Shown: positions 5,714 to 23,883 of the stretch, piece after piece
Position numbering within the stretch: position 1 is the stretch's first letter
How the letters are laid out: every line of letters begins with the position of its first letter
Source of the DNA: Candidatus Schekmanbacteria bacterium
GTDB lineage: Bacteria > CSSED10-310 > JACPHN01
DNA length: 34,303 nucleotides
NCBI GenBank assembly: GCA_016188575.1
Contig: JACPHN010000102.1
Coordinates: 1-34,303 of the forward strand
Direction of reading: 5' to 3'
Notes under the pieces: generated by a model
What the model saw: only the letters and a program-made list of their open reading frames with translations
The model's database searches: none
What the model was told of the DNA's origin: nothing
Position numbers and translations under genes: made by a program

Positions 5714-6745
5714 TCAGAATGACAGAGAAAACGTCAATTTGGCAATGATGTCATCGTCGGGGGCCTCGGCATCACCCTCCGCATCGTAGAACGCGTAGGA
5801 CACGTTCGGAATGACGCTAAAGCGCTTGTGGACGCGATAGTCCCAGCCGACTATCAACAGGTTCGACTTTGACGACTTGTCGAAGGTGTAGTAGCTGATC
5901 TTGTCCGCACCCGGAATCACGTCCAGCGTCTTGTCGTACCGCGCCAGCAGACTCGAATTATCGCTCGTGTTGACCACCCCGTAGAGCGACACGAGATCCA
6001 GGTCCACATCCTCGCCATCGGCGCTGTCACGCGTCTGCCGGGCGGCGAGCGCACCCACACGGCCCCAGCCCCCCTTGAACCCGGCAAATACTTGATAGGT
6101 CTTGCGATTGGTGTCTCCAGGCCGGTTCTCGAAGTCCACGTACGCCTGCACCAGGAAGGACTCCGTCGGCGCAAAACCGATCGCAGCCATGGCCTTCTTG
6201 CCCTGATCCGTCTCGCCCTTCGTCCCCGACCCGTTGCCCAGCATGGCGTGGTACAGCAGTTTCTTGTCCAGCGCCTTGCCCTTCAGCGCCAGACCAAAGT
6301 CCCGTGACGATCCATAACCCCACAGGTCCAGCGGCGTCTTTTCCACGGGCCGGTAGCCCCATTCACTTTCGACCAGATCGAAGGTCGGGGTGCCGGAAAG
6401 GCCAATGTACAACTCTTGGGAAGCGAGCTTCCACTGCACATAGGCGTCCTTCACGAAGGGGACCATGTTCGCGCTGGTAGTGAAATCACCCGCGGACGAG
6501 GCCTCGAAGCGCAGGCGTCCCGATATCGTATCGGTGATTTTCGGATCGAAGGTCAAATAGACGCGACGAATCCAGTATCCGTTAGACCCTTCTATATCCT
6601 TGTTGTGATCCTTGGCAACCCAATAAACATCTCCAAATACATTGCCGCTGATCTTGAAGTTCTGATACCAGGCCGGTTCGTCTGCGTGCGCGATTGATCC
6701 AAACAGCATTGCCATCATGGGAACAAGCACAAGTAGCCGCTTCAT
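5714..6745 (-). CDS. Outer-membrane beta-barrel porin
   Basis: This encodes 343 residues beginning with a signal peptide that ends at about residue 21 (SIAHA-DEP). The rest is a run of alternating amphipathic strands, including SGRLRFEAS, DAYVQWKLASQELYIGL, VQAYVDFEN and LIVGWDYRVHKRFSVIPNVSY. It finishes FSLSF, with the terminal Phe recognised by the outer-membrane assembly machinery. It resembles phosphate-selective porin O/P-like or short-chain-solute barrels, so it probably admits a small, perhaps anionic, solute. GGAGGAGAT precedes the ATG. The gene is 51 bases after the rhodanese lipoprotein and is the last gene of the respiratory operon. A rhodanese-like lipoprotein next to a porin also occurs in the Geobacter ext cluster (ExtH/ExtI). 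The shared role is inferred. Confidence 0.8.
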   Translation of the reverse strand: MKRLLVLVPMMAMLFGSIAHADEPAWYQNFKISGNVFGDVYWVAKDHNKDIEGSNGYWIRRVYLTFDPKITDTISGRLRFEASSAGDFTTSANMVPFVKDAYVQWKLASQELYIGLSGTPTFDLVESEWGYRPVEKTPLDLWGYGSSRDFGLALKGKALDKKLLYHAMLGNGSGTKGETDQGKKAMAAIGFAPTESFLVQAYVDFENRPGDTNRKTYQVFAGFKGGWGRVGALAARQTRDSADGEDVDLDLVSLYGVVNTSDNSSLLARYDKTLDVIPGADKISYYTFDKSSKSNLLIVGWDYRVHKRFSVIPNVSYAFYDAEGDAEAPDDDIIAKLTFSLSF

Positions 6746-6796
6746 CTTCCAATCTCCTCCAACACAGGATCCACGGAGAACACCTGAAATGACTGC

Positions 6797-7321
6797 TCAA
6801 CAATCTCTGTATATACCGCCTGCTCCTTCCTCCCTCTCAGCCGAGCTCGGCGCACGGTCGCTTCCCCCGGAACGATCGGCGTCTTTCCAGTCCGCCAGAC
6901 CACCGGTATTGCTCACGTTCCGGTAGCCGGCCCGCAGCAGAATCTCCTTGGCGCGCGCGGCACGCACGCCTGCGGCACAGTACACAAGGATCGGTCGATC
7001 GAGGTCGTTTCCCGCCAGCGCGCCCACCTCCCCGAGCCGCGCAGCGATGTCCGACTCCGGCATCAGAATCGCGTTCGGCAAATGCTCCCTTGCGTACTCC
7101 TCCGGCGTGCGCACGTCCAGCAGCACGGCGCCTCGGCGAAGCAGGTCGCGTGCCAGCGCAATGTCGCGATCGGGAAGATTCGAGCGGAGCTCGGTGACGG
7201 GCCGCGCACTGCTGAGGGGCACCGCCTCGCGATTCCCGCACCCGCCGCACAGGCACAGGCAGGATGCCACCATGACCTGAATCCACCGCCTGTTCGGCTG
7301 CAAGCTGTGCAGAAAGCGCAT
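6797..7321 (-). CDS. Lipoprotein rhodanese (periplasmic sulfurtransferase-like)
   Basis: This encodes 174 residues. The N-terminus is basic then hydrophobic and ends in a Cys-rich lipobox (LCGGC, Cys28), so it is likely a membrane-anchored periplasmic protein. Residues 50-150 form one rhodanese domain. It has the CH2-like motif LLDVRTPEEYAREHLPNA and the active-site loop CAAGVR with Cys115, so the catalytic persulfide cysteine is intact. The last 25 residues are polar and look disordered. Periplasmic rhodaneses such as Sud of Wolinella pass polysulfide sulfur to a Psr-type reductase. Here the gene lies downstream of a Psr-like complex, which supports a sulfur- or selenium-handling role. The start at 7321 gives the signal peptide; the ribosome site is weak. 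A REP-like repeat lies directly upstream. Confidence 0.82.
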   Translation of the reverse strand: MRFLHSLQPNRRWIQVMVASCLCLCGGCGNREAVPLSSARPVTELRSNLPDRDIALARDLLRRGAVLLDVRTPEEYAREHLPNAILMPESDIAARLGEVGALAGNDLDRPILVYCAAGVRAARAKEILLRAGYRNVSNTGGLADWKDADRSGGSDRAPSSAEREEGAGGIYRDC

Positions 7322-7324
7322 CAC

Positions 7325-7366
7325 GAAGACCCCCCACCTCACCTCCCCCCGCCAGCGGCGGGAGGG
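7325..7366. repeat. Dispersed palindromic (REP-like) repeat, copy 2
   Basis: This element begins GAAGACCCCCCACCTCACCT, matching copy 4 at 31869 almost base for base, and continues into the hairpin CCCGCC-agc-GGCGGG. It lies in the 164-base gap between the polyferredoxin and rhodanese genes and abuts the rhodanese start. It may affect mRNA stability or translation between the two genes. The rest of the gap shows nothing I can name. Confidence 0.75.
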
Positions 7367-7485
7367 ACGGAGGGGGACGCTGTCGCGTCGACCTCGAACA
7401 TGGGGTGGATTCGGGATGACGATGGCGGTTGCGCTGGGGCCGAGCATCTGCATGGTTCGCATCTTGTGGTACCTCCCAACGTGGT

Positions 7486-9018
7486 CTAGAGCGCGAAGGC
7501 GGGAGCGCGGCAGGCATCACAGAGCGCGGCGCGCACTGCCGGCGTCGCATGCTCGGCGCGTGCCAGTCGGGCGCCGACGAGCTGCTGCAGGCGCCCTGAC
7601 TCCACGGCCTTTCCACAGCGCGCGCACGCGGCAGATTCCACCTCGACGAGGGTTTCCGTGCGGTCGTCGAGGATCGCGTCGGTCAGGCGCCGCTCGAGCA
7701 CCAAGGCCCCGGCCGCTCGCTCGGGACAGCGCGCCGCACACAGGCCGCACGCAACGCAGCGCGAGGGCGTAAACAGCAGGCGCTGGCGACCGCCGGTACG
7801 CTCACAATGCAGCGCACTCGTGGGGCACGCGAGTGCGCATACGCCGCACAGCGCACATGCGTCCGCATTCACGTCAAGGGCGCCGAAGGGGGAGAAGGGG
7901 TCGGCGACGTCCAGTCGCGCTTCCCCGCCCGCGAAGCGCCGTACGAGCTGTCGGATCACGGCTGCCGTCAACCGCCCCCCATCTCCGGCGGCCTCGTCCG
8001 CCAGCCACGCGTCGTCGTAAGCGGCCGCGCCGCTGTCGTCATCGGGCAGCTCTTCGTGCGCCCGGGACGAGAGCTCCAGGCGCGCCGGATTGGCGTCCAG
8101 AGCCGCCAGCACGCGGCGACCGAGCTCTACCCGACCTCCCAGTCGTTCGGCCGTTCCCCGTTCGTGCTCGTGCCCCTCACCCCCCATCGCGACGCTGACT
8201 CTGGCGGCGCCCAGCGCCAGAGGAAGAAGGAGCAGCGCCGGTGAGAGCAGCGAGACGCAATGGACTTCCACCGGAAGCGCGCCGGTCTCGCTCGGGCCGC
8301 CGCCGCGGCACCGATAGGCCACCTCCCAGGTCGGGAGCTCGGAGCTCGCCAGCCGCGCCAGTGCGCGCACCTGGGTGAGGATCTGCCGAGTCGTCGAGCC
8401 AGGCAGGAATAGCGCACCAACCGGGCACGCGGCCACGCACTGCCCGCAACCGGTACACTCCTGGGGAGCGATCGCCACGGCCGTTCGACCCGGCGCGATC
8501 GCGTGTTGCTGGCAAGCCTCCAGGCACCTTTTGCAGCCCCGGCCGGCGGCACATCGCTCGTGCGCGACTACCGGAACCGGCTCCAGATGCGCCGGCCGCA
8601 AGCGCAGAATGGATCTTCTGGACAGGGTTCGCGGCAGTGCGAAGCGATACCCGTCCGGACCCGGGGGCTCGAAAGCGCCCAGTCGGGCAAGCGCCCCGGC
8701 CACGAGGAGCCGAGCGCGCCGCGCGGCAACAGCCTGAGACCCGGCGCCGCTTCTGGGCAGGACAACGACGTCCACGCACAGCGGCTCGATACCTGCTCGC
8801 CGGCCTTCCTCCTGCATGAGCTGGTTGTCGACCGGCGTCGAGCACAGGCCGAGCAGCAGCCGATCCATCCCGGCCGGCACGCGGCCCACAAGCCGCGACG
8901 GATCGCAGCACAGTCCCGGCACCACCGCGCCGCGCGGCTCGGCGAGCCCCAGCCCCAGACTCGCCGCGGCGGGCACATGCTCGCAGGAGAGCACGCCGAC
9001 TGTGCTCGGAACACTCAT
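7486..9018 (-). CDS. Polyferredoxin with HdrA/MvhD-like segments
   Basis: This is a soluble 510-residue iron-sulfur protein with no signal peptide. Four [4Fe-4S] motifs are visible: Cys156-x5-Cys-x2-Cys-x3-Cys, Cys188-x2-Cys-x2-Cys-x3-Cys, and two adjacent ones in the C-terminal third (CALCGVCALAC and CVACGLCAARC). A pair of CxxC motifs at the C-terminus (CARC, CDAC) could bind zinc or iron. The N-terminal 85 residues (VGVLSCEH..., LCSTPVDNQLMQEEGRRAGI) and the stretch around residues 250-320 resemble parts of HdrA and of MvhD-type subunits, so it may carry electrons in the cytoplasm. The start overlaps the chaperone stop by four bases (ATGA), implying translational coupling. Its role may be electron supply or assembly of the molybdoenzyme; the family assignment is tentative. 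Confidence 0.75.
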   Translation of the reverse strand: MSVPSTVGVLSCEHVPAAASLGLGLAEPRGAVVPGLCCDPSRLVGRVPAGMDRLLLGLCSTPVDNQLMQEEGRRAGIEPLCVDVVVLPRSGAGSQAVAARRARLLVAGALARLGAFEPPGPDGYRFALPRTLSRRSILRLRPAHLEPVPVVAHERCAAGRGCKRCLEACQQHAIAPGRTAVAIAPQECTGCGQCVAACPVGALFLPGSTTRQILTQVRALARLASSELPTWEVAYRCRGGGPSETGALPVEVHCVSLLSPALLLLPLALGAARVSVAMGGEGHEHERGTAERLGGRVELGRRVLAALDANPARLELSSRAHEELPDDDSGAAAYDDAWLADEAAGDGGRLTAAVIRQLVRRFAGGEARLDVADPFSPFGALDVNADACALCGVCALACPTSALHCERTGGRQRLLFTPSRCVACGLCAARCPERAAGALVLERRLTDAILDDRTETLVEVESAACARCGKAVESGRLQQLVGARLARAEHATPAVRAALCDACRAPAFAL

Positions 9019-9761
9019 CGTGACACCGTACCCACGCCGTCAGAAAGACCCACCACCTCACCACCCCCCGCTTGCGGCGGGAGGCCAAGCTCGTCACTGT
9101 GGAGCCACTGTTCATCTCTCAGCAAGACGCCCACGGTACCCCCCGCCACTGCCCGATAGAAGCCGCACCGATCTGCCTCGACGACGCGGCGGGCAAACTC
9201 TGGAAACCATCTGAGCACGTGCCGCCGGAGAAAGCCCGCCTGTGTTCTCATCGCGGCATGGCCCGCACCCTCGGCCCATCCGCGCGACTCTTGCCGGCAC
9301 AAGTGGGCCATGATCTCGAGCTCGACGACGACGTAGTCCGCCGTGTCGCATAGCGAATCTCGCAAGGTGACGCCGGCGTCGGCGTATTCGCGCAGGAGCT
9401 CGGCGTTGACCACACCCCGGTGATGCGATGGCTTGGTCGCATAGGCCGACTCATAGGGTGGCGCCACCGCGTTGGCCTCGAAGAGGCGCACGTGCTCCGT
9501 TTGGAGCGCGAGCAGAGGAGTCGCCGCGAGCGCCGCCTGCGCCTCCTCCGCGAGCCGCTCCCAGGCCGCGAGCAAGGGAAGCTGACCGCCGCACTGGTGC
9601 CAGGATTCCGACCGCGCGAGCTCGTCCTGCAACGTCTCGACGCGGCCGGCATCCGGGTACTGAAGAGCGGAGGCGATCAGCCGGTAGACGGCGTGACGCA
9701 CCGCCGCGAGAAGCTCAAGCTCTCTGTGCCGCTGTTGCGTTGCCGCCGTCTGGTCCGACAT
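9015..9761 (-). CDS. TorD/DmsD-family molybdoenzyme assembly chaperone
   Basis: This is a 248-residue cytoplasmic helical protein. The family signature is seen around residues 88-107: EHVRLFEANAVAPPYESAY, matching the E-x3-LF ... PYES(V/A)Y pattern of TorD-like chaperones. These proteins bind the Tat leader of a molybdoenzyme and hold it until cofactor is inserted. The client is presumably the Tat-signal oxidoreductase at the head of this operon. The ATG overlaps the stop of the small membrane protein by one base (TAATG), and its own stop overlaps the polyferredoxin start (ATGA). The last 20 or so residues (including LPPQAGGGEVVG) are encoded by a REP-like repeat and look like a recent, non-conserved tail. 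Confidence 0.85.
   Translation of the reverse strand: MSDQTAATQQRHRELELLAAVRHAVYRLIASALQYPDAGRVETLQDELARSESWHQCGGQLPLLAAWERLAEEAQAALAATPLLALQTEHVRLFEANAVAPPYESAYATKPSHHRGVVNAELLREYADAGVTLRDSLCDTADYVVVELEIMAHLCRQESRGWAEGAGHAAMRTQAGFLRRHVLRWFPEFARRVVEADRCGFYRAVAGGTVGVLLRDEQWLHSDELGLPPQAGGGEVVGLSDGVGTVSR
9046..9084. repeat. Dispersed palindromic (REP-like) repeat, copy 3, inside a coding end
   Basis: AGACCCACCACCTCACCACC is followed by the hairpin CCCCGC-ttg-CGGCGGG. It is clearly related to copies at 7325 and 31869, though with more substitutions. It lies within the 3' end of the chaperone gene and supplies its final residues, so the insertion was tolerated in frame. Confidence 0.7.
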
Positions 9762-9982
9762 TACTCACCGCCGTCGCGATCGGGAAGCAGCTCGTATACG
9801 ATGGCCGCGATGAAGACCAGCATGACCCCGGCGATGAAGATCGCCGGCGCAAACGGCAACCGCGGGTTACTGTACTCCACGCCAGTCGGAATCCCGAGCG
9901 GCGCGGCCAAGAAGAAATACGACAACGCCTGGAGGAAGAATCCTCCGAGCACCATGCTTACGGCAAGCTTGCCTCTGGTCAC
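9761..9982 (-). CDS. Small two-helix membrane protein of the respiratory operon
   Basis: This encodes 73 residues with two hydrophobic helices, at about residues 6-27 and 44-65, separated by a Pro/Gly-rich loop (PLGIPTGVEYSNPRLPFAP). It ends in an acidic tail (PDRDGGE). The start is GTG at 9982 with AGGAGG five to six bases upstream, a strong site that makes the gene credible despite its size. It follows the NrfD subunit by 81 bases and overlaps the chaperone gene by one base. It may be an accessory subunit packing against the NrfD protein. I do not recognise a family. Confidence 0.75.
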   Translation of the reverse strand: MTRGKLAVSMVLGGFFLQALSYFFLAAPLGIPTGVEYSNPRLPFAPAIFIAGVMLVFIAAIVYELLPDRDGGE

Positions 9983-10063
9983 CGTACACCTCCTGCGTCG
10001 ACATCCGAAACCGGACTTTGTCGAACGAACGTTAGAATCACGTGAAGTCTATCGCCAGACACC

Positions 10064-11344
10064 TTACTCGGCCCCGTCCGTCAGGTCGATCACTGGAAAG
10101 ACCTTGACGAAGATCGCGAAAATCAGGCAGCCCAGCGCAATGACGCCGAGCACGACTGCATACTCCACCGAGGTCGGCGAATAGGAACCCGTCCCGTAGG
10201 GCAGCAGGGTCCCGTGTGTCTGCGATGGCACCACCAGCAGGTACCGCTTGGCGATCGCTGCCACGTTGACGAGCGCGCCGGCGACCACGAGCTGCGTCAG
10301 GCTGAACTGATTGCGGACCCATTGGCCGAAAAGAATCGCCAGCGGCACGACCAGGCAGATCACGGCCAGCCAGTAGGTGGAGGCGAAATCGCCACCGAGC
10401 AGAGCCTTGGTCAGCTTCAGCTCGTGCTGATGCCCTTCGTACGCCCCGGTGAGCCACTCCACCACCATGAAGTACAGATACGCGAGCACCAGCACCATGA
10501 GGAGGTTTCCAAGCCACCTGAAGATGCGATCGTCGAGTCTGGTCTCGGCTCCATAGAGCCTTCTGAACAGGGCCGCTACCAGGATGACGAGCCCGACACC
10601 CGACACTCCGGCCATCACGACGAACCCCGGAGCCTGCAAAGCGCTGTGCCAGCCTGGCCGGCCGACCTGCAGGCCGAAAACGAAGCCCAGCGTCGAGTGC
10701 GCGGTTACGAGCAGCGGAAGAATCGCAATGGCCAACCAGAAACTGGCGACTTTTCGCCGGTGCTGCTCGGCCGGGGTGCCGCGATAGCCGGCTGCCCAGA
10801 GCCGGTGCAGGCCTTGCAGGCGGCTCGGCACCTGGGCGCACGTCGCCGCATCGGGTCTGCTGGCCAGGTACAGGTACACCAGGCTCGCAAAGAAGTAGCC
10901 CGAGACGACGAGAGTAAAGGTGCCGAAGAACGGCGACTGCGGCCGTGCGTAGCGAAACAGATTGGTGATGCCGCGGAGCGGCTGCCCGAGGTCAGGCAGG
11001 ATGCACAGGCCCGCCAGGATGAGGGCGGTGACCGTAATCAGCTCGGCGATTCGGGAGATTGGTTTGAGATAGTGGACGTCCAGCAGCCGAATCATGGCGG
11101 CGATGGTGATGCCGGCAAAGCTCACGCCGACGAAGTAGATCAGGAAAACGATGTACAGGCCCCACGTCGCTCCACCCATCGAGCCGATGTCGCGGAGGCC
11201 GGTGATGATGTGGCCTTCCGAGAGTTGGCGGCCATAGCTCAACAGGCCGATGGCCAGCAACACGAGCATGCCCATGACGAAGGTGAGGTACTTGGGGGTC
11301 AGTTGGCCAACGCCGAACGGCAGTCGTTCGAGTTTCGCTTGCAT
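10064..11344 (-). CDS. NrfD/PsrC-family quinone-reactive membrane subunit
   Basis: This encodes 426 residues with roughly ten hydrophobic helices. It is the integral subunit that exchanges electrons between the quinone pool and the attached ferredoxin subunit. Family features include the long N-terminal PsrC-like core (GATWGLYIVFLIYFVGVSFAG) and the segment STLGFVFGLQVGRPGWHSAL followed by APGFVVMAGVSG, as in ActC/QrcD-like ten-helix NrfD proteins. Helices near the C-terminus are preceded by KRYLLVVPSQTHG. AGAGGAG lies nine bases before the ATG, inside the end of the ferredoxin gene, and only three bases separate the two genes. The size and helix number favour the ActC/HmcC-like subtype over the eight-helix PsrC, but the reaction direction cannot be read from sequence. 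Confidence 0.88.
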   Translation of the reverse strand: MQAKLERLPFGVGQLTPKYLTFVMGMLVLLAIGLLSYGRQLSEGHIITGLRDIGSMGGATWGLYIVFLIYFVGVSFAGITIAAMIRLLDVHYLKPISRIAELITVTALILAGLCILPDLGQPLRGITNLFRYARPQSPFFGTFTLVVSGYFFASLVYLYLASRPDAATCAQVPSRLQGLHRLWAAGYRGTPAEQHRRKVASFWLAIAILPLLVTAHSTLGFVFGLQVGRPGWHSALQAPGFVVMAGVSGVGLVILVAALFRRLYGAETRLDDRIFRWLGNLLMVLVLAYLYFMVVEWLTGAYEGHQHELKLTKALLGGDFASTYWLAVICLVVPLAILFGQWVRNQFSLTQLVVAGALVNVAAIAKRYLLVVPSQTHGTLLPYGTGSYSPTSVEYAVVLGVIALGCLIFAIFVKVFPVIDLTDGAE

Positions 11345-11347
11345 CGC

Positions 11348-12085
11348 CTAACTCCTCTTTCCAGCGGGCTGGATCTGGCGCCAGCCATGACCGTGCGGGG
11401 TGCCGCCGACGTACTGCACGCGCGGGTGGGTACCGGCCTCCTCGAGAAGCCGGAAGCTGCTCTTCCTTTGCAGCTTCTGGGACGGTTCACTGGCCGGGTC
11501 ATCGAGATCGCCGAAGATGATGGCGTGCTCCGGGCAATTGGCGGCGCAGGCCGTCGTCTTGCCGGCCTCGACCCGATGCACGCAGAACGTGCATTTCTCG
11601 ATCACGCCCTCCACATGCGAGGCGCCGGCGATGTGGCGCTTTTCGGGGCCGCACGGCCGGTCCAGGTCGGGGTTCTTGTACGGGGGAATCACGCCGCCGG
11701 ACAGCGCCTCGAGCTCGGGGTCCTTCCAATTTACGTACTGGTTTTCTTCCGGGTCGCGCCAGTTGAAGTAGTTGACGCTGTAGGGGCAGGCGACCTCGCA
11801 GTAGCGGCAACCGATACAGCGATCCCAATCGGTCGCGACGATGCCGTCCTCGCGCTTGTACCGCGCGCCCACCGGGCATACCTTGGCACACGGGGCGTTG
11901 TCGCAATGCATGCACGGCCGCGGCATGAACCAGATGCGCGTGTTTGGATATTCGCCTTCCTCGAACCGGAAGACGTACATCCAGAAGCTTCCCTCGGGGG
12001 TGTTGTTCTCTACCTTGCAGGCCGCCATGCATGCGCGGCAACCGGTGCAACGATCGAGGTCTATGACCATTCCATAGCGTGGCAT
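11348..12085 (-). CDS. Four-cluster ferredoxin subunit (PsrB/NrfC/TtrB type)
   Basis: This is a 245-residue electron-transfer subunit between the molybdoenzyme and the NrfD protein. Four cysteine sets are visible: Cys13-16-19-23, Cys58-61-66-70, Cys90-93-96-100, and a C-terminal CTFC ... CAANC set. That is the complement for four [4Fe-4S] clusters, as in PsrB, TtrB and DmsB. No signal peptide is present; such subunits are co-exported with the Tat-signal partner. I chose the ATG at 12085 (MPRYGMVIDLDRC) because AGGAGG lies just upstream and the longer in-frame extension lies within the previous gene. The gene begins 17 bases after the catalytic subunit stop. The last 40 residues beyond the fourth cluster set resemble no particular domain. 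Confidence 0.92.
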   Translation of the reverse strand: MPRYGMVIDLDRCTGCRACMAACKVENNTPEGSFWMYVFRFEEGEYPNTRIWFMPRPCMHCDNAPCAKVCPVGARYKREDGIVATDWDRCIGCRYCEVACPYSVNYFNWRDPEENQYVNWKDPELEALSGGVIPPYKNPDLDRPCGPEKRHIAGASHVEGVIEKCTFCVHRVEAGKTTACAANCPEHAIIFGDLDDPASEPSQKLQRKSSFRLLEEAGTHPRVQYVGGTPHGHGWRQIQPAGKRS

Positions 12086-12102
12086 GTCCGGTGTCCTCCT
12101 CT

Positions 12103-14664: not shown

Positions 14665-14692
14665 GCCGAACCTCGCGTCTCGAGACTTGATT

Positions 14693-14710
14693 GCCTGATG
14701 CGCTTCAGGC
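14693..14710. repeat. Inverted repeat in the 5' leader of the molybdoenzyme operon
   Basis: GCCTGA and TCAGGC form a perfect 6-bp inverted repeat around a 6-base spacer. It lies about 29-46 bases before the catalytic subunit start and next to the transcription start expected from the sigma-54 element. A second palindrome, GTCTCGAGAC, lies at 14677-14686. They may be repressor sites or a leader hairpin. Confidence 0.4.
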
Positions 14711-14720
14711 GCAACCACTC

Positions 14721-14735
14721 GCAAGAATGATGCCG
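14721..14735 (-). promoter_or_regulatory. Candidate sigma-54 (-24/-12) promoter of the molybdoenzyme operon
   Basis: Read on the minus strand, CGGCATCATTCTTGC has the invariant GG and GC with exactly ten bases between them. It matches the consensus TGGCAC-N5-TTGC except for T to C and C to T changes in the -24 box. Transcription would begin about 12 bases downstream, near 14709, leaving a leader of some 45 bases. The divergent gene encodes an NtrC-type activator with an intact GAFTGA loop, so the pairing is sensible. No start-site data exist. Confidence 0.55.
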
Positions 14736-14770
14736 ATTGTCGAGCGGCAGGCGGTGGCGGTAGAAACCAT

Positions 14771-14790: not shown

Positions 14791-14820
14791 TGAGCTGGTT
14801 ACATTTCGCCTCGAGTCGGT

Positions 14821-14836
14821 GTTACCTGGCGGTAAC
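14821..14836. promoter_or_regulatory. Candidate upstream activator site, GTTACC-N4-GGTAAC
   Basis: A perfect 6-bp inverted repeat around TGGC lies about 120 bases upstream of the expected sigma-54 start, a usual distance for an enhancer bound by an NtrC-type dimer. A lone matching half-site (GGTTAC) lies at 14797-14802. The element is also about 25 bases before the regulator's own start codon, so it could mediate autoregulation. Binding by the adjacent regulator is inferred. Confidence 0.45.
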
Positions 14837-14859
14837 AGCCGCATTCTGGAGTCGGTTGC

Positions 14860-16239
14860 ATGAGCTTTTCGGTGCTGCTTGTCGAGGACGAGACGACGCT
14901 GCGGGAGATCGTGGCGCAGGCGTTGCTGGGGCGAGGCGATGAAGCGGTCACCACCGGCAACGGCCGGCGGGCGCTGGAGCTGCTGGGGCAGCGGAGCTTC
15001 GACCTGGTCATCACCGACATTCGGCTGCCGGGCTGCTCCGGGCTAGAGATCCTGACGCATTGTACCCGTCACCTCCCGGCGGTGGCGGTGATTGTCATTA
15101 CCGCCTTCGCGACAATCCCGGAGGCGGTCGGTGCCCTCAAACAGGGGGCCTACCATTATCTGTGCAAGCCGTTCGACATCGACGAGTTGCTCCACCACGT
15201 CGACCAGGTTCGGGAGCGCTGGGCGCTGCGCGCTCAGGTGGCCGAGTTGCGCCAGGCCGTCGCTGCCACCCGGGACGCGTCGGGGCTGTTGGGGCAGTCG
15301 GTCGCGATGTGCCGGATCAGAGAGCTCGTGTCAACCGTGGCGACGGCGGCAAGCAACATCCTGATCACGGGTCCGAGCGGGACTGGAAAGAACCGCGTGG
15401 CGCGGGCCATTCACGACCTCAGCGCGCGGTCCGAGCGGCCCTTTGTCTCCGTCAATTGCGCCGCCATCCCCGATACCCTGCTGGAATCGGCGCTGTTCGG
15501 CCACGAACAGGGCGCGTTCACCGGTGCGGTGCGCAGGCACGACGGGTTCTTCGAACGCGCCCGCGGGGGAACGCTGTTGCTGGACGAAGTCGCCGATCTG
15601 TCGCCGACCTCGCAGGCGAAGATTCTGCAGGTAATCCAGGAACGGACCTTCTACCGCCTCGGCGGAACCAAGCCCATAGATGTCGACGTACGCCTGATCT
15701 CGGCCAGCAATCGGAGTCTGACAGGAATGGTGGAGCGCGGGACCTTCCGGCTCGACCTGTACTACCGGCTCAACGTCGTCGAGATCAAGGTCCCGGCACT
15801 TTGCGAACGCCCCGAGGATATTCCCATTCTCGCCGAGCACTTTCTCAGCCGTCTCGCCGCGGAGCACGGTAGGACCGTCTGCAGATTCGCTCCGGCGGTC
15901 TGGTCCCGCCTGCTGGCGCACCCCTATCCGGGCAACGTGCGCGAGCTGGAGAACGTCATCGAGCGCTGCGTCGTGCTGTGCCGCGGCGAGGAGATCCAGC
16001 TCGAGCACCTTCCTGAAGCGCTCGGCGCCGGCCACCGACCCGCTGCGGCGGCAGTGCCGCCGCGCGGCGAGACGACGCCTCTGAGCGAGGCCGCGCGTGC
16101 CTTCGAAATCGAGTATATCCGCAGCGTTCTGGAGCGGAACCAGGGAAACCGCACCCGCGCCGCCGAAGACCTCGGCATCAGCCGAAAGCACCTGTGGACC
16201 AAGCTCAAGCAGCTCGGACTGGAACCAGACGAAGGGTAG
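14860..16239 (+). CDS. NtrC-family sigma-54-dependent response regulator
   Basis: This 459-residue cytoplasmic regulator has three modules. Residues 1-120 are a receiver domain with phospho-acceptor Asp53 (ITDIRLPG) and Lys103. Residues of about 145-380 are the AAA+ domain with Walker A GPSGTGKN (171-178), the sigma-54 contact loop GAFTGA (218-223) and Walker B LLLDE. The final 45 residues are a Fis-type HTH (AAEDLGISRKHLWTKLKQLGL). It should be phosphorylated by a histidine kinase and activate sigma-54 promoters. The natural partner is the kinase at 21072-22541, which is separated from it by the metzincin module. It is transcribed away from the molybdoenzyme operon, its probable target. Walker A ends in Asn rather than the usual Glu/Ser/Thr. 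GGAG precedes the ATG. Confidence 0.92.
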   Translation: MSFSVLLVEDETTLREIVAQALLGRGDEAVTTGNGRRALELLGQRSFDLVITDIRLPGCSGLEILTHCTRHLPAVAVIVITAFATIPEAVGALKQGAYHYLCKPFDIDELLHHVDQVRERWALRAQVAELRQAVAATRDASGLLGQSVAMCRIRELVSTVATAASNILITGPSGTGKNRVARAIHDLSARSERPFVSVNCAAIPDTLLESALFGHEQGAFTGAVRRHDGFFERARGGTLLLDEVADLSPTSQAKILQVIQERTFYRLGGTKPIDVDVRLISASNRSLTGMVERGTFRLDLYYRLNVVEIKVPALCERPEDIPILAEHFLSRLAAEHGRTVCRFAPAVWSRLLAHPYPGNVRELENVIERCVVLCRGEEIQLEHLPEALGAGHRPAAAAVPPRGETTPLSEAARAFEIEYIRSVLERNQGNRTRAAEDLGISRKHLWTKLKQLGLEPDEG

Positions 16240-16448
16240 CATGCCGCCGCCCAGCTTTGGCGCCGGGCGCCGACACCAGCCGCGGAGTCGCCGGTGTCCG
16301 ACGGCGTGGCGAAGGCATGGTCGATATGAATGGCGTGGCCCACGTCGTTTTTCTCAGTGACAACCGGGAGCAGGTCCGCCGCGCCTTGGTCCGCGCTCGA
16401 AGTCGACGCTGCGCGAAGCACGGCGGGTCGGCCCGATACCGTTGGTTC

Positions 16449-17558: not shown

Positions 17559-20500
17559 GCAACCTCACTTGCAGTCTGTCTTCGTCGTCGGCCGGTAGGC
17601 CATTTCCCAGGATGGCTTGCCAGTGCGGATCGGTGAGACTCGAGGTGCGCGTCAGAAAGTTGGTCACCATAGCCGATTCGCGATTCGCCTCGGCACAGGG
17701 ATCATTGTCGGGGCAGCCGGGAGATCCGGGCTGGCGGTAGTGTGCAGCGCCGATCGCGTGCCCAACCTCGTGGGCCACCGTGAAGGTCATGGCCTCCTCG
17801 TCGTGGGGCTCCGAGAGCGCGGTTTCACTGCTCGTCTGGGGGCTGATGCAGGTGATGGCGTAGAGATGGATGTAGCTGCGGCCCACGGTGTTGAGGTTCC
17901 GCGGTCCGCTCGCATTCGGCCAGAGGGTGCTGCCGATACGAGGGAGAGATGAGCCGCAGCCGTCACCCTGGAAATACTGGTTGGTAAACCAGAGGTAGAT
18001 TCCTCCTTGCCGCGCTCTTCCCAGCGCGGTCTCCCAACGCGGCTTGACCAGTATGCTTGGCCGTTCCGAAAAGCTGAACTCGCTGTTGTCCTTCCGAAAC
18101 AGCTCATGCACGGCCAGGCCCCAGCGAGGGGACAGAAGAGCGACAGCGCTCGAGGCCAGCTCCGGCGCAATGTCAGGGACTCTTGGCACTGACTCGTGGA
18201 TGAGCGGCGCTACGAACAGATCCTTGCGCTCCGGAGAGGTGCGCACGAACCGCCGGTTCGTCACGAAGCCGCGATACTCCTCGTAGGCCGTGAATCCATC
18301 GCCGACAACGCCTTCGGCAGGTTCCCCCGAGGCCGGCGGGTCGGCATCCACGTCCTCGCGCACGTCCGGGCGGTCGGCGATCGGGGTGGGCACCCCGTCC
18401 GCCGCCCATCCTGCGTCCGGTAACCCGCTGCGGTCGTCGTCGCGCGGAAGCTGGCGGAGCTCTTTCGCCGAGCTGTCCCCTCCCGCGGGCGGCCCCACGT
18501 AGGTTTTTTCCCCCTCGACGTCCACCTGCACCGCGAAGTGCCCGTGTGCTCCGAAGTCGGTCGTGCTCGCCTCGATGACCGCGGTCTCCAGCGCTTGCCG
18601 GTCGTCCTCCGGGGTCGCCCCTCTCGCGTAGCGCATCGGTACGTTGAAGCTTGCCTCCCGGAATACCGGGGACACGGAGCTGGCCTCGAGGTCGGGATAG
18701 GCGAAGGCGCTGCTCTCCTCGAGCGTGACCTCCATCGGCCCCCCGTTCCCCTGGTAGGTAACCCGATAAACCACGTCGTCCTCGTTGCCGGGTGCGTCCG
18801 CGGGGTAGTTGGTGGCGATCCCCGGAAACACGGTGCTGGCGGTCGCGAAAGTGAGCGTGGCGCGGTCGGCGGCGAACTTCGGGACCGCCTCGAGACGGTA
18901 GCTCTGGGTGGTGGCGGGCTTGCCCGGGTCGCCGACATCGCCGAGCGGCAGGAAGCTTCGGGGCGTGTCTTGCTTGTAGCGGAATCGCCACCTGGTCTCG
19001 CCATCGGTGGCGTCCCGCGCCGGCGGCCCACCGCTGCCAGCGAGGTCACCATCTCCGTCCCACGGAATGCTTCCCGGGCCACCGCGCCGCCCGCCGCTCC
19101 TGGGTTTCACCGGAATCTCGAACAGCGTTCCGCCCATCGCGACCCTATTGGGGATGCGAAGGCCGCCCAGATACTCCTCTTCGCTCTCCAAGCAGCCGTC
19201 GACCAGATCGCTGCCGCAACCGTACCGCTCGGCGATCGTCGCGCCCGTCGCCCCGCCGCCATCGATCCACACGTACTCGACGTCGATCGCCTCCGAACGC
19301 GAGCGGTGCAAGCCAACCCGCGCCGCCAGCGGCCCCACTGGTCCGGACAGCACCTGCCAGCGCTGGTTGAAGTGATACCAGCCGTCCCCCTGCTCCTCTT
19401 CCAGGCATTCACCGACCGAGCTCGTCAGCGATACCGACACTGGGATCGGCTGCTTGTCGTACCACACCCACTCCTCGGGCTCGGCGCGGCGGCGGCAGTA
19501 CGGCAGCGCCGCATTCAGGCAATCGTAGAGCACCCAGCTCAGCGAGAAGGTGCCGGCGAGCTGCGCCTTCATCGGCACAGACTTGGTTGCCCATGCGGGG
19601 CAACCAAGGTCGTCCTCGACCGTGTCAGTCCACTCAAACGTCAGATCCCAGCGCTCGAGCAGGTCGTCGGCGCGGGCCGGCACGACGTTGCTGAGACGCT
19701 CGGTTTCGACGGTGTCGCTCGAGGCCCCGTGCGCGGGGTCCACCGGCTCGCGAACCACTACGTAGAGCCGGTATTCGTAGTGCGAACCGGGCACGACGGT
19801 GTCGTCGGTCCATTCGGTGACGTCGATACCCGTGATGTGCGCGATGCGGACATGCGACAGCACGTTCGCGGCGGCGCCTGTCACCGCGGCGACGGCGAGG
19901 ATCAGCGCGGCGCCACCGGCCGCCACGCCGCGCCGCCTCCGGACCGCACACCGGCGGGCCACGAGCAGCCAGGGAAACACCAGGAGCGGCAGGCACTGGC
20001 TCACCCGGGACAACGGCACGATCAGCGCCAGCTCGAGGTAGACATCGTAGGCCTCGAAGATCTGCCCGGGACGATCCGGCGTCCAGCGGTTCCAGCCCAG
20101 GCGGATCGCGCGCGCGGAGCTGTCGATGAGGCGCAGGAAAGGCGCCAGCACCCACCGCGCGGTGTCGCCGAACGGCGGGGTGAGCGCGGGGGTAACCGTC
20201 GCGGTCGGCGAGGGGGCCGGGGTGCGGGTCGCCGTGCCGCTCGGCCCGATCGTCGCGGTATCGGTCGCCGTGGGCGTGGGCGTGCGGGTCGAGGTCGGGG
20301 TGCGCGACGGGCTCGCGGTGCGGGTGGCGGTCGACGTTCGCGTGGGGCTGGCGGTGCGCGTCGCCGTGGGCGTCCCGGTGATCGTCGGGGTCGGCGGCAG
20401 CGCGAACGCCGGCAGGTCGATCGCGTCGATCCACACCGCATCGCTGCCGGCGCTGCCCGCCGCGTCCTTCTCGTAGGTCCAGACCAGAGTCCAGACACCA

Positions 20501-20928
20501 ACCGTAAGCGTGTAGGACGCCTGGGTCCACGGCGTCTCCCCGGACCAGCGGTCTTTCTCATAGAGTGTCCCGGAAGCGCCCTGCACCGAAAACACCAGCG
20601 CGTCGCTCTCCGGTTCCGTGGAGGTCCTCAGCCAGAAGCGGACGCTTCCCGATGCGAGTAGCTCGAGCTCGACCTCGAGCACTGCCGCGCTCCCATCCAC
20701 AAGCGGCGCCGAACCCGCAGCATACGTTCCTTCGGCCGCCACGCCCACAACCACCTGCCATCCGGCCTCGGGGCTCATGCTCCACGGCAGCGCCGAGAAG
20801 TCACCCGTCTCGAAAGACTCGACCGCGGCGAGGGCGACGGCCGGAGCGGCGGCCACGGCGATCGCGCCGACGCTCGCCGCCACCCAAAGGCTCAGAGTGA
20901 GAGAGAGAGACATGACGCGCCGGGGCAT
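17539..20928 (-). CDS. Large secreted multidomain metzincin-like metalloprotease
   Basis: This 1129-residue protein starts at the ATG with GGGAGG five bases upstream. It has a signal peptide (about 1-35), a jelly-roll or lectin-like domain (about 36-175), and a Thr/Pro/Arg-rich linker (about 177-252). A fibronectin III-like segment (about 260-385) follows, with two hydrophobic helices inserted near 297-322 and 333-354. A long beta-rich region comes next, and the C-terminal catalytic domain has HEVGHAIGAAH (His1053). This is a full metzincin zinc motif HExxHxxGxxH, and a candidate Met-turn lies about 30 residues on (ESAMVTN). Zinc is inferred from the motif. The two helices could anchor the protein. 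It is followed by an overlapping companion gene and lies between the kinase and regulator of a two-component system. Substrate is unknown. Confidence 0.82.
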   Translation of the reverse strand: MPRRVMSLSLTLSLWVAASVGAIAVAAAPAVALAAVESFETGDFSALPWSMSPEAGWQVVVGVAAEGTYAAGSAPLVDGSAAVLEVELELLASGSVRFWLRTSTEPESDALVFSVQGASGTLYEKDRWSGETPWTQASYTLTVGVWTLVWTYEKDAAGSAGSDAVWIDAIDLPAFALPPTPTITGTPTATRTASPTRTSTATRTASPSRTPTSTRTPTPTATDTATIGPSGTATRTPAPSPTATVTPALTPPFGDTARWVLAPFLRLIDSSARAIRLGWNRWTPDRPGQIFEAYDVYLELALIVPLSRVSQCLPLLVFPWLLVARRCAVRRRRGVAAGGAALILAVAAVTGAAANVLSHVRIAHITGIDVTEWTDDTVVPGSHYEYRLYVVVREPVDPAHGASSDTVETERLSNVVPARADDLLERWDLTFEWTDTVEDDLGCPAWATKSVPMKAQLAGTFSLSWVLYDCLNAALPYCRRRAEPEEWVWYDKQPIPVSVSLTSSVGECLEEEQGDGWYHFNQRWQVLSGPVGPLAARVGLHRSRSEAIDVEYVWIDGGGATGATIAERYGCGSDLVDGCLESEEEYLGGLRIPNRVAMGGTLFEIPVKPRSGGRRGGPGSIPWDGDGDLAGSGGPPARDATDGETRWRFRYKQDTPRSFLPLGDVGDPGKPATTQSYRLEAVPKFAADRATLTFATASTVFPGIATNYPADAPGNEDDVVYRVTYQGNGGPMEVTLEESSAFAYPDLEASSVSPVFREASFNVPMRYARGATPEDDRQALETAVIEASTTDFGAHGHFAVQVDVEGEKTYVGPPAGGDSSAKELRQLPRDDDRSGLPDAGWAADGVPTPIADRPDVREDVDADPPASGEPAEGVVGDGFTAYEEYRGFVTNRRFVRTSPERKDLFVAPLIHESVPRVPDIAPELASSAVALLSPRWGLAVHELFRKDNSEFSFSERPSILVKPRWETALGRARQGGIYLWFTNQYFQGDGCGSSLPRIGSTLWPNASGPRNLNTVGRSYIHLYAITCISPQTSSETALSEPHDEEAMTFTVAHEVGHAIGAAHYRQPGSPGCPDNDPCAEANRESAMVTNFLTRTSSLTDPHWQAILGNGLPADDEDRLQVRLHGNSRD
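20172..20397. repeat. Thr/Pro/Arg-rich low-complexity linker repeat
   Basis: This segment of the metzincin gene encodes an imperfect array of short units such as TPTATRTASPTRT and TPTSTRTPTPTAT. The repeat is degenerate in DNA, with a GTGCGGGT-like theme on the plus strand. Linkers of this type join exported domains and may be glycosylated; that last point is inference. Confidence 0.7.
20899..20910. repeat. (GA)6 dinucleotide tract in the signal-peptide coding end
   Basis: Six GA units (TC on the coding strand) encode Ser-Leu residues in the signal peptide of the metzincin. A change of one unit would shift the frame within the first 15 codons, so this is a possible, though short, phase-variable site. 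Confidence 0.5.
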
Positions 20929-21071
20929 TCGCACCTCCCAAGATATTGGGGACGATCGCCGACTACGATTGTGCGGCGAAGCGTCGCGCGGCGCAAGGGG
21001 CGGGGGCTGACGCCAACCTGCATAAGAACCGATCTGCTGGCCTGCCGCCGCCGGGTCTTGGCGCCGGCCGC

Positions 21072-22541
21072 CTACCCCGGTCCCAGGGTCGCCGCGGCGG
21101 CGCGATCGCTGTCGCCGAGCGCCAACTTCTCCGCTCGGTCCTCGTACAGTCGCAGTCGCATCACGGTCCCGCCTCTCCCCCCTTCCGGCTCCTCGATGAG
21201 CAGCTCGCCGCCATGCGCAGCGACGATGTTGCGGGATACGGACAGCCCCAGTCCAGTTCCGGTCGCCCGCGTCGTATAAAAAGGCTCGAACACCTTGCTC
21301 CTGGCCTCGACGGGGATGCCTGGGCCGTCATCTTCCACCACCACGTCCTGCGCGTTCTCGCCGGAGATCAGCGCCACGGCGATGCGACCATTGCCGCTGG
21401 CGCCGCGGATCGCCTGGCAGGCGTTGAGCAGCAGGTTGACCATGACCTGCCCGATCTGGTCGGCATCGAGGCGCAGAGGCGGCGGCTCGCCGTCGATGCG
21501 CAGCTCGAGCGCGATCTCCTCTTCGCGAAGTGACGGCCTGAACAGCGTCACGGCAGACCGCACCACCTCTGCCAGCGACACGGCGCGAAAATGCGGCGGG
21601 TTGGGCCGGGAAAATGCCAGCAGGCGTTGAACGGTGCGCGCGATCCGCCCAATGGCAACGTCCAGCGCCCCCAGGTAGCTCGCACCTTGCTCCGGCGCCA
21701 GCCCCGGTTGGCCGAGCGCCCAGAGGCATGCCCGCACGCTTGCCAATGGGTTGTTGATTTCGTGAGCGACACCGGCCGCAAGTTGGCCCGCCGCCGCCAT
21801 CTGCTCACTTCTGACCAGGGCCTGGCAAGAGCTGCTCAACTTGGCGGTCATCTCGTTGAACGCTTCCGCGAGCACGCCGAGCTCGTCCTCCGTCATCGGC
21901 GGGATGCGCACCGCAAGGTCCCCCGATCCGATTCTGCCGGCCATCTCGGCCAACTGCCGCAGCGGCGCGGTCAACACTCCGCCCATGAACAGCGCCACGC
22001 CGATCCCGATCGCGGTGAGGAAAGCGAACAAAATCAGCAGCCGAACGGTGATACTCCGGGCGAGAGCGAAGTCACGTTCCTGGTCGATGGCGGCGTGGAG
22101 ACGGCCGGCGCGGCCGCCGAGCAAGTCGATGGCGATGTGCCGCAGCCGCCTGCCGCGGTCCAGGATCAGCAGGTCCTCCGCGGCAGCCGCACGCGCGAGG
22201 ACCGCGTCGAGCGCCACCGGCGTTTGCGCGCCGAAGCTCGTCGCGACGATGCGGCCCTCGCCGCCAGCCACGACGAGATACACCAGGCGCGGATCGCGCT
22301 CCACGGTTTCGAAGAGCTGCATCTGGAGCTCAAAGGTATTCTCGGTGAGCGCACTGTTGACGATCTCGGCGGACAGGCCCTGGAGATATTGAAGGTAGTT
22401 TTCGCGGGTCGTATTCTGGATGGCGTCCGCGACCAGGACCTGCAGAAACGCCAGGACGCTCGTGCCGAACGAAACGCTGGCGACGACCATGATGGCGACG
22501 AGCTTGGCGCGCAGGCTTCGTTGGAGGTGCCTCAGCAACAT
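21072..22541 (-). CDS. Membrane sensor histidine kinase
   Basis: This 489-residue kinase has a periplasmic sensing region (about 38-160) between two membrane helices (about 14-36 and 165-190). A HAMP linker follows (TAPLRQLAEMAGRIGSGDLAVRI), then a HisKA domain with phospho-acceptor His260 in GVAHEINNPLASV, and an HATPase domain with N, G1 and G2 boxes (NLLLNACQAI, DDGPGIP, GTGLGLS). It should phosphorylate the NtrC-type regulator at 14860, the only response regulator in the window. The ATG overlaps the stop of the binding-protein gene by one base, so the two are translated together, as in AioX-AioS and ArxX-ArxS. It lies 137 bases upstream of the metzincin ATG, so that gene might be part of a longer transcript. 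Confidence 0.9.
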   Translation of the reverse strand: MLLRHLQRSLRAKLVAIMVVASVSFGTSVLAFLQVLVADAIQNTTRENYLQYLQGLSAEIVNSALTENTFELQMQLFETVERDPRLVYLVVAGGEGRIVATSFGAQTPVALDAVLARAAAAEDLLILDRGRRLRHIAIDLLGGRAGRLHAAIDQERDFALARSITVRLLILFAFLTAIGIGVALFMGGVLTAPLRQLAEMAGRIGSGDLAVRIPPMTEDELGVLAEAFNEMTAKLSSSCQALVRSEQMAAAGQLAAGVAHEINNPLASVRACLWALGQPGLAPEQGASYLGALDVAIGRIARTVQRLLAFSRPNPPHFRAVSLAEVVRSAVTLFRPSLREEEIALELRIDGEPPPLRLDADQIGQVMVNLLLNACQAIRGASGNGRIAVALISGENAQDVVVEDDGPGIPVEARSKVFEPFYTTRATGTGLGLSVSRNIVAAHGGELLIEEPEGGRGGTVMRLRLYEDRAEKLALGDSDRAAAATLGPG

Positions 22542-23551
22542 CAGAAACTGCTGCGCTGGAGCTCACGAAGCATTTCGTCCACGCTCGCGTAGCTGACCGA
22601 ATCGCCTGGCGCGAAACGGTCGACGCCGAGCCTGCCGAGCGCCCGTCGACCTTTTTCGTCGCGGTGCATGTTGAGGAAGATCTGCTGCAGCTTCGCGCGG
22701 AAATCGGGGGGGAGGCCCTTTCTGATGACGACGGGCGGGATGCCGAACGGCTCCGAGCGCTCGACGATGCGCACGAGCTCACCCAGCTCGGGTTGCTGTC
22801 TGAGCAGCGCCGCGTAGACGAGGCTGTCGACGGCGGCGCCGTCTACCAGGCCGTCGCGGACCATCTGAATCGACTTTTCGTGACTGTGCGTGCGAATCGT
22901 GGTGCGAAAGTAATCTTCCCTTTCGCCCGGCTGATCGAGGATGCGCCATCTGGGGTATAGATACCCCGTGTTGGATAATGTATCCACGTATGCAAACGTG
23001 CTCCCGCGGAGATCGGAAAATGACTTCGCCTCCAGCCTGGGGTGCACGATTATCAAGGATTGATATGTTGTACTGCCATCGACAACCGGAACGACCAACA
23101 GATCCGCCTTCGCCTCTTTTTCGAGAATGACATAGGCGCCACTGCAAATGAAGGCCACGTCTACCAGGCGCCTTTCAATGAGCTGGTTTATCGCAGCGTA
23201 ACTTGGCCGCTGAATCATGTGCGCCGGGCTGCCGAGCTTTTCGCCGAGGTATTCGATCAGCATGAGGTAGGCGTCGGCGTTGGATGCAGGCGCCAACATC
23301 GTCGCCACGGCCACGCCAAGCGCATCGACCTTGGCAGCATGAGCGGGGGAATACGCGCGGGTACGGGAAAGGTCGACGGGCAGCCGCTCGGACTCACTTC
23401 GCCGCGCTATCAACAGGGCCACGCCGGCGACGAAAACAGCGCCGGCGAGCAGGACCAGCGGCACCCACTCCGGCCAGCCGGCGCGATGGGTGGCGAGGTT
23501 CTCCCGGCCAGTCGTTTCCGGGGTTAGCGCCTTGCCACGAGGCTGATCCAT
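22541..23551 (-). CDS. Membrane-anchored PhnD/AioX-like substrate-binding sensor protein
   Basis: This encodes 336 residues. One helix near residues 29-50 anchors a periplasmic domain of the phosphate/phosphonate-binding (PhnD-like) fold. Visible hallmarks are LGVAVATMLAPASNADAYLML, the DVAFICSGAYV strand and DLRGSTFAYVDTLSNTGYLYPR. Cys136 in FICSG is the only cysteine of the mature protein. In AioX, which belongs to this family and detects arsenite, a conserved cysteine participates in binding, so this residue may bind a soft oxyanion or metalloid. No ABC permease or ATPase lies nearby, so it is a sensor rather than a transporter part. It is coupled to the kinase gene by TGATG. I prefer the ATG at 23551; a longer frame upstream lies in non-coding-like sequence. 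The ligand is unknown. Confidence 0.85.
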   Translation of the reverse strand: MDQPRGKALTPETTGRENLATHRAGWPEWVPLVLLAGAVFVAGVALLIARRSESERLPVDLSRTRAYSPAHAAKVDALGVAVATMLAPASNADAYLMLIEYLGEKLGSPAHMIQRPSYAAINQLIERRLVDVAFICSGAYVILEKEAKADLLVVPVVDGSTTYQSLIIVHPRLEAKSFSDLRGSTFAYVDTLSNTGYLYPRWRILDQPGEREDYFRTTIRTHSHEKSIQMVRDGLVDGAAVDSLVYAALLRQQPELGELVRIVERSEPFGIPPVVIRKGLPPDFRAKLQQIFLNMHRDEKGRRALGRLGVDRFAPGDSVSYASVDEMLRELQRSSF

Positions 23552-23562
23552 AGGTCTCGCAG

Positions 23563-23883
23563 TCAGTGGACGGTGCGTTCGCCGGTGCTCTGATTGCGCA
23601 CGCGGAAGTAGCGCAGCCAGAAACCCAGGTCGCGGGCGTGGCGGGGCGCGGCCGAGGCGTCGGCCAATCTTTGCACAAGGACCTGCGCTCGCCACGGGAG
23701 ATGCCGGTACAGCCGCTCGAAATCTGCGTCATCACGAGCCTCCTGCACCAGCGCATAGAGCTCCGCGAGGGTCGCAAGCGGCGCCGCCGGCGCCCCTTGG
23801 GACGCGTCGCCGCCGCTCTCCCGCCAGGCGCTCAGCGCCGCTTCCCAGCTCACTGAGCTTGGATCTTCCTTTGCGGACCCCAT
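23563..23883 (-). CDS. Small helical protein preceding the sensor genes
   Basis: This encodes 106 residues without signal peptide or membrane helix. It is Ala/Arg-rich and mostly helical, with segments WEAALSAWRES, LAELYALVQEARDDADFERLYRHL and ARDLGFWLRYF. It ends 11 bases before the binding-protein start, so it is probably the first gene of a three-gene sensory transcript, though it also follows the O-antigen ligase by only 60 bases. I recognise no family. A role in sensing or in the kinase complex is suggested only by position. Confidence 0.6.
   Translation of the reverse strand: MGSAKEDPSSVSWEAALSAWRESGGDASQGAPAAPLATLAELYALVQEARDDADFERLYRHLPWRAQVLVQRLADASAAPRHARDLGFWLRYFRVRNQSTGERTVH

Follow-up and report, generated by a model that had tools for sequence, protein, structure and literature searches.

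A candidate Arx-like arsenic oxidoreductase operon with a linked PhnD-like sensor in a Candidatus Schekmanbacteria genome

Introduction

A molybdoenzyme operon that shares a stretch of DNA with genes for a periplasmic sensor raises the question of which compound the enzyme turns over, in which direction, and whether the sensor controls it. Such an operon is found in a 34,303-nucleotide stretch from a Candidatus Schekmanbacteria bacterium (GenBank assembly GCA_016188575.1, contig JACPHN010000102.1, positions 1 to 34,303, forward strand; G000:C211 in this study), which is called the window here and belongs to a 9.2-Mb assembly of 275 contigs. The RpoB of this genome reaches 63% to a genome of its own rare phylum, 57% to Methylomirabilis and 55–56% to Nitrospinota. 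The initial annotation proposed a sensor-controlled respiratory system, Psr- or Arx-like in its enzyme and AioXSR-like in its sensing. The eight operon genes and three regulatory genes on which it relied were recovered at the same places from open reading frames (ORFs) and Pfam/NCBIfam matches (Table 1): a catalytic molybdopterin subunit (A), a four-cluster ferredoxin subunit (B), an NrfD-type membrane subunit (C), a 73-aa membrane protein, a TorD-type chaperone (D), a polyferredoxin, a rhodanese and a porin, together with a PhnD-like sensor, a histidine kinase and a sigma-54-dependent regulator. Judged from sequence comparison, the product of the operon is probably a sensor-controlled arsenic oxidoreductase of Arx-like type, from a catalytic clade for which no earlier description was found in the open-access literature searched, and would most likely act as an arsenite oxidase.

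The catalytic subunit

Relatives were collected by one scan with the catalytic protein over contigs, using one genome per species, and comprise 80 loci, mostly with 53–71% identity to that protein, drawn from both Bacteria and Archaea and from 12 phyla or more. The catalytic subunit belongs to a clade of its own in trees calculated with and without a mixture model (support 100 in the Shimodaira–Hasegawa approximate likelihood-ratio test, SH-aLRT), separate from ArrA, ArxA (Sulfuricella), Phs/Psr, Ttr and AioA; the trees were made quickly, with SH-aLRT as the measure of support and no bootstrap, and in them the references beyond the plasmid-borne ones were assigned by curated models, often below cut-off, and named SrdA, SrrA and SoeA references are not included. 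The Ttr rows form their own group at support 100, and the catalytic subunit is not among them. The enzyme falls inside none of the described clades compared, and the Psr-like assignment made initially is not supported. No curated NCBIfam model reaches its cut-off for the catalytic subunit; the best is PhsA, with 258 bits against a cut-off of 694, and the ArrA model gives 166 bits against 1600.

The first cluster motif, which contains CWIGKQDC, has the form C-x2-G-x3-C-x27-C, in which the second cysteine is replaced by glycine and one [4Fe-4S] cysteine is thereby lost. The C-x2-G-x3-C form recurs in the relatives that cover the motif, and the complete C-x2-C-x3-C-x27-C of the ArxA/ArrA lineage was not found among them. 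The conservation of CWIGKQDC is partly selected for, because it was one of six search patterns; the protein of Natronorubrum, found by tblastn without a motif pattern, carries it as well. The molybdenum ligand Cys178 lies in HGAYCSDAG, where His-x3-Cys-Ser-Asp is as in ArxA (HSSMCSD), as opposed to CAEA in ArrA. Nearly all members have WQKGRSK in place of the pocket motifs xGRGWG of ArxA and (R/K)GRY of ArrA (PMC6549141). Since the features that define the ArxA/ArrA lineage were tested for and not found, the subunit is placed outside it; by these sequence features, it is neither an ArxA nor an ArrA. An AlphaFold2 model (predicted local distance difference test, pLDDT, 89; predicted template modelling score, pTM, 0.88) has ArrA and PsrA, tied, as its closest folds. 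No ArrA or AioA was detected at strict cut-offs in the window's own genome, nor was ArrA found in the window's phylum or in the phylum of genome G093, where few genomes were covered.

The nearest relatives of the clade form a sister group (L083-L091), mostly at 35–40% identity. Its members occur in up to five copies per genome (G038, G039, G055, G093, G117), and one copy is flanked by an IclR-type regulator gene on one side and a solute-binding protein gene on the other. Two further variants were observed: an HR19 homologue (L076:9812-12658) carries some 30 additional residues inserted among the cysteines of its first cluster motif, and two proteins of Thermomicrobiaceae (L066, L067; about 41% identity) keep CWIGKQDC and have an altered molybdenum-ligand region (RRGNDCGGAHQ). 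A lipoprotein reading of the catalytic subunit, for which LMAGC follows the Tat motif in the window, is not claimed, because the relatives, apart from one haloarchaeal protein, lack LMAGC.

Distribution and gene order

The bacterial hosts are Chloroflexota (many, including SAR202), Actinomycetota, Rokubacteria, Methylomirabilota, Nitrospinota, Armatimonadota, Bacillota and Zixibacteria, with marine Acidimicrobiia and Thermoflexus also represented; the archaeal hosts come from several phyla, the haloarchaea being more distant. The majority of host genomes are metagenome-assembled, so that single binning errors are possible; Candidatus Lucifugimonas marina and Halomicrobium katesii are among the complete or isolate genomes. 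The related loci share the order A-B-C-(small membrane protein)-D-polyferredoxin; tens of them, spread over many phyla, repeat this core arrangement, so that the gene set is not a product of chance. Homologues of the 73-aa membrane protein were found in 47 loci. None of the 80 related loci has a counterpart of the rhodanese or of the porin, which are local extras. NrfD is missing in 5 of 53 loci, three of which (Rokubacteria L005, Methylomirabilis L009 and Clostridia L017) have a dihaem cytochrome c in its stead, homologous among the three.

Several neighbouring genes were recorded beside this core. L006, L046, L056 and L076 have a further molybdoenzyme operon next to the present one, either Ttr-like or close to the Arr/Arx group, and an intervening gene in L067 encodes CxxCH motifs. 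Two actinobacterial loci have a cupredoxin-like gene (L053:16972-17397 and L058:16919-17383) that runs convergently toward the end of the polyferredoxin gene; its product may be an electron acceptor.

Sensor and regulation

Compared with solved structures, the window sensor scores 158 bits with ArrX, 99 with AioX and at most 55 with PtxB/PhnD; its AlphaFold2 model (pLDDT 85.5) is closest in fold to ArrX (target TM score 0.94, 32–33% identity), with AioX next. The arsenic pocket of AioX is made up of Tyr88, Cys106, Tyr131, Ser161, Ser163, His192 and Asp210 (PMC5908839). All 21 operon-linked sensors, that of the window included, conserve Tyr88, Cys106, Tyr131, Ser161, Ser/Thr163 and His192, and 20 conserve Asp210, which is Glu in the remaining one; Ser163 is replaced by Thr in about two thirds. 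The window sensor itself reads Y, C, Y, S, T, H, D, sharing its Thr with ArxX of Sulfuricella, and the diagnostic Cys106 is lacking in the four PhnD transporters compared. In the tree, the operon sensors group with AioX, ArxX and ArrX, apart from the PhnD transporters (SH-aLRT 99), and ArrX nests among them. Sequence, pocket, tree and fold thus bear out the AioXSR-like sensing of a complex iron–sulfur molybdoenzyme (CISM)-type operon, and point to an arsenic oxyanion as the likely signal of the PhnD-like sensor.

An operon-linked sensor was found in 21 of the 40 loci with enough flank, so that sensor and operon do co-occur in relatives. The associated kinases and regulators vary by family, being of NtrB/NtrC type in the window, with NarL-type regulators in several other loci. 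The three regulatory genes do lie in the window, as had been noted, but not in one block with the operon: the regulator gene is divergent from the catalytic gene, and some 6.4 kb separate the enzyme gene from the sensor and kinase genes upstream of it, with two unrelated ORFs (16449-20934) placed between the regulator and kinase genes.

Arsenic genes and the polyferredoxin

At three related loci, which come from a Chloroflexota, a Solirubrobacterales and a Halomicrobium, Acr3 adjoins the operon: together with an ArsC-like protein tyrosine phosphatase (PTP) in L015, 26 bp after the polyferredoxin gene in L032, and together with ArsR in L074. From the Acr3 copy numbers in the genomes, 0.096 such loci would be expected (P=1.4e-4). 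Moreover, Natronorubrum bangense has a plasmid-borne operon that is flanked by ArsR and by arsD-arsA and has a low-molecular-weight PTP (LMW-PTP) upstream, and in an actinomycetotal locus (L050) an LMW-PTP arsenate-reductase-like gene directly follows the polyferredoxin gene.

The polyferredoxin matches ArxB2 with an hhalign probability of 99.6 (E 6e-24, 302 columns). A chance likeness between Cys-rich ferredoxins was considered and rejected, and homology is retained, because the two proteins align collinearly also across the central region, outside the clusters. ArxB2 has been called specific to arx and has not been reported for arr clusters (PMC6549141). Its relatives appear in only 3 of 72,556 plasmid records (Sulfuricella, Cereibacter and Azoarcus), in each case within or close to a molybdoenzyme operon that is linked to X-S-R genes. 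Subunit B is 41% identical to ArxB1 of Sulfuricella over 208 columns and tends to group with ArxB1 in the tree, with a support (87) that is not strong. From the sensor type, the ArxB2 homologue and the adjoining Acr3, ArsC, ArsR and ArsDA genes, we infer an arsenic rather than a sulfur function for the operon.

A separate observation concerns plasmid pAZKH of Azoarcus sp. KH32C (L187), which encodes another molybdoenzyme with arsenic links that belongs neither to Arr/Arx or Ttr nor to the present clade. X-S-R genes, NrfD, TorD, Acr3 and arsA are its neighbours, an ArxB2 relative lies nearby, and its first cluster motif is C-x2-C-x3-D.

Proposed mechanism and direction of catalysis

In the proposed mechanism, the PhnD-like periplasmic sensor would use its Cys pocket to bind an arsenic oxyanion and would then signal to the histidine kinase, which would act on the sigma-54 regulator to switch on the operon. 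The TorD protein would insert Mo/W-bis(pyranopterin guanine dinucleotide) into the catalytic subunit, which would then be exported through the Tat pathway jointly with the four-cluster ferredoxin subunit. Arsenite would be oxidised to arsenate at the Cys-ligated molybdenum (or tungsten) centre, and the electrons would travel by way of the first cluster and then the other four to NrfD and into the quinone pool or, in some relatives, to the dihaem cytochrome c instead, with oxygen or nitrate as the final acceptor. The polyferredoxin is taken to fill the role of ArxB2.

Of 31 host genomes, 30 encode a member of the haem-copper oxidase family, which also takes in nitric oxide reductases, compared with 79 of 193 background genomes (Fisher p=8e-10, a guide only, because the background differs from the hosts in phylum make-up). 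Taken with the cytochrome c variant and ArxB2, this difference speaks for arsenite oxidation, which we judge to be the probable direction.

Several observations weigh against an Arx-like arsenite oxidase. Holding the catalytic subunit together with Arr/Arx is rejected by the approximately unbiased (AU) test (p=0.00035), and the missing xGRGWG is a pocket motif of ArxA. Most related loci are without adjacent ars genes, and about half of the decidable ones are without an adjacent sensor. Many hosts are probably menaquinone users, and the entry of electrons from arsenite is uphill at menaquinone potential; transfer from menaquinol to arsenate is energetically downhill. The first loop of the operon sensors is ArrX-like and not the TPVFL loop of AioX and ArxX; given also that ArrX nests among these sensors, the sensed ion could be arsenate, which ArrX binds while it does not bind arsenite (PMC5908839). 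The ArrX-like sensor and the menaquinone energetics would thus favour arsenate reduction.

Alternative explanations

The first alternative is that the same complex is a respiratory arsenate reductase, in which NrfD would oxidise menaquinol, arsenate would be reduced in the periplasm, and an arsenate-binding sensor of the ArrX type would induce the genes. The sensors that group with ArrX and have its loop, the downhill energetics, and the fold match of the catalytic model to ArrA (tied with PsrA) agree with such a role, which is countered by the equipment of nearly all hosts for oxygen respiration, by a polyferredoxin of a type reported for arx and not for arr (PMC6549141), and by a CSD pocket as in ArxA instead of CAEA as in ArrA. 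Arsenate reduction is regarded as an unlikely direction, though it is the strongest of the alternatives.

Acr3 and ArsR can act on antimonite too, and the enzyme pocket is unlike those of both ArxA and ArrA, so that the substrate might be another group-15 or group-16 oxyanion (antimonite, selenite, tellurite or thioarsenate) sensed by an arsenic-like pocket. Pocket residues alone do not determine specificity among AioX, ArxX and ArrX, which leaves room for this substrate range; however, none of the three bound antimonite, selenate, sulfate, tetrathionate or thiosulfate (PMC5908839), and the neighbours of the operon are arsenic genes, which makes another oxyanion quite improbable.

A sulfur enzyme of the Psr/Phs type is hinted at by the rhodanese adjoining the operon, from which sulfur or selenium chemistry had been suggested at first, and by PhsA as the best, if far sub-threshold, curated model. 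Nevertheless, the clade is separate from Phs/Psr, no related locus has the rhodanese, and the sensor is of the arsenic type with ars genes as neighbours of the operon, so that this explanation is very improbable. Finally, a proximity of sensor genes and operon without any functional tie, as the two large ORFs between kinase and regulator and the sensor-free relatives might suggest, can hardly be credited when sensors of this one type stand beside the operon in 21 loci, in several phyla and with differing kinase and regulator types, and the window regulator is directly divergent from the catalytic gene.

Locus layout

Table 1. Features of the operon and its regulatory genes in the window.
Feature	Position	Strand	Basis or remark
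Catalytic molybdopterin subunit (A), 853 aa	12103..14664	-	Tat signal RRTFLK; Pfam/NCBIfam molybdopterin oxidoreductase with Fe4S4 domain
Four-cluster ferredoxin subunit (B)	11348..12085	-	Fer4_11
NrfD/PsrC-type quinone-reactive membrane subunit (C)	10064..11344	-	PF03916
73-aa membrane protein, about two transmembrane segments	9761..9982	-	GTG start; conserved YSNPRxPFAP motif
TorD-type maturation chaperone (D)	9015..9761	-	Nitrate-reductase-delta/TorD match
Polyferredoxin with central FlpD-like region, ArxB2 homologue	7486..9018	-	Multiple Fer4
Lipoprotein-like rhodanese, YCAAGVR loop	6797..7321	-	Rhodanese match
Outer-membrane porin	5714..6745	-	Weak porin-model match
Sigma-54-dependent NtrC/AtoC-type response regulator	14860..16239	+	Sigma-54 response regulator match
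HAMP-HisKA-HATPase sensor histidine kinase	21072..22541	-	Pfam/NCBIfam domains
PhnD-like periplasmic sensor, ArrX/AioX type, transmembrane anchor	22541..23551	-	PF12974 phosphonate-binding
Possible sigma-54 promoter cGGCAtcattcTTGC	14721..14735	-	56 bp upstream of catalytic gene

For the 73-aa membrane protein, the reading frame was taken from the sequence itself, with its start at 9982 and its stop ending at 9761, where it overlaps the ATG of TorD. The porin is without a Pfam match and matches an outer-membrane porin model only weakly. Despite the site ahead of the catalytic gene, sigma-54-type sites are not more frequent across the whole window than chance would give. Large secreted-looking ORFs with zinc-protease-like motifs (HEVGHAIGAAHY, HEGGHSIHIDHY) lie at 17539-20934 and 33092-33760; the former is PT-repeat-rich and stands between regulator and kinase. 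Defence-system models gave no match to the two intervening ORFs.

Significance

A third respiratory lineage of arsenite oxidases besides Aio and Arx, with one cysteine of the first FeS site lost and a range of at least 12 bacterial and archaeal phyla, is a reading that we rate slightly better than even. No prior description of the catalytic clade was found in the open-access literature searched; Wells 2023 (PMC10100899) mentions Cys-ligated lineages without names, which could include the present clade. An undescribed enzyme branch of such breadth suggests that the respiration of arsenic compounds may be far commoner than is known. If the clade turns over arsenic, surveys built on aioA, arrA and arxA overlook an arsenic oxidoreductase, and arsenic redox metabolism would extend to abundant groups to which it has not been ascribed (SAR202, marine Acidimicrobiia, Nitrospinota, Rokubacteria, Thermoflexus and haloarchaea), the carriers being widespread marine, soil, hot-spring and subsurface lineages. 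The lost cluster ligand and the exchange of NrfD for a dihaem cytochrome c make questions of electron flow directly testable, and members occur in named, genome-sequenced organisms (Halomicrobium katesii, Natronorubrum bangense and Candidatus Lucifugimonas marina).

Comparison with known systems

Among described sulfur systems, PsrABC and PhsABC share the gene architecture with an NrfD-like membrane subunit and the Cys-ligated molybdenum, but form a separate clade and have neither an arsenic sensor nor an ArxB2-type gene. The sister group (L083-L091) contains the closest relatives of the catalytic subunit and differs by a complete C-x2-C-x3-C in most members and by other pocket residues. AioXSR with AioBA offers an arsenic-type periplasmic sensor, a kinase and a sigma-54 regulator; on the other hand, AioA lies in a far clade, the Aio system is without NrfD, and AioA has no protein ligand to its molybdenum. 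The Arr system with ArrX (Chrysiogenes, Shewanella) resembles the present one in the Cys-ligated molybdenum site (H-x3-C), the closest fold (ArrA) and the closest sensor (ArrX), whereas the catalytic subunit here stays far below the ArrA cut-off in a clade of its own, and no ArxB2-type gene has been reported for arr.

The initial annotation knew of no described system with this exact set of genes. That claim does not stand for the core, since A, B, C, D and B2 with X, S and R make up the described arx cluster (PMC6549141), and stands for the catalytic subunit, which is not ArxA, and for the extra membrane protein. The arxB2ABCD-arxXSR cluster of Alkalilimnicola, Ectothiorhodospira, Sulfuricella pSCD and Cereibacter ORIO has counterparts here for A, B, C (NrfD), D (TorD), the ArxB2-type polyferredoxin and the X-S-R regulation; the FeS subunit is 41% identical to ArxB1, the HxxxCSD pocket is shared, and ars genes are often nearby. 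The differences lie in a catalytic subunit outside the ArxA/ArrA clade, a first cluster in which Cys2 has become Gly, WQKGRSK in contrast to xGRGWG, the additional 73-aa membrane protein, and an occurrence in many bacterial phyla and in archaea, in contrast to arx, which has been reported only in Proteobacteria (PMC6549141). On present evidence, the operon would appear to work like an Arx system.

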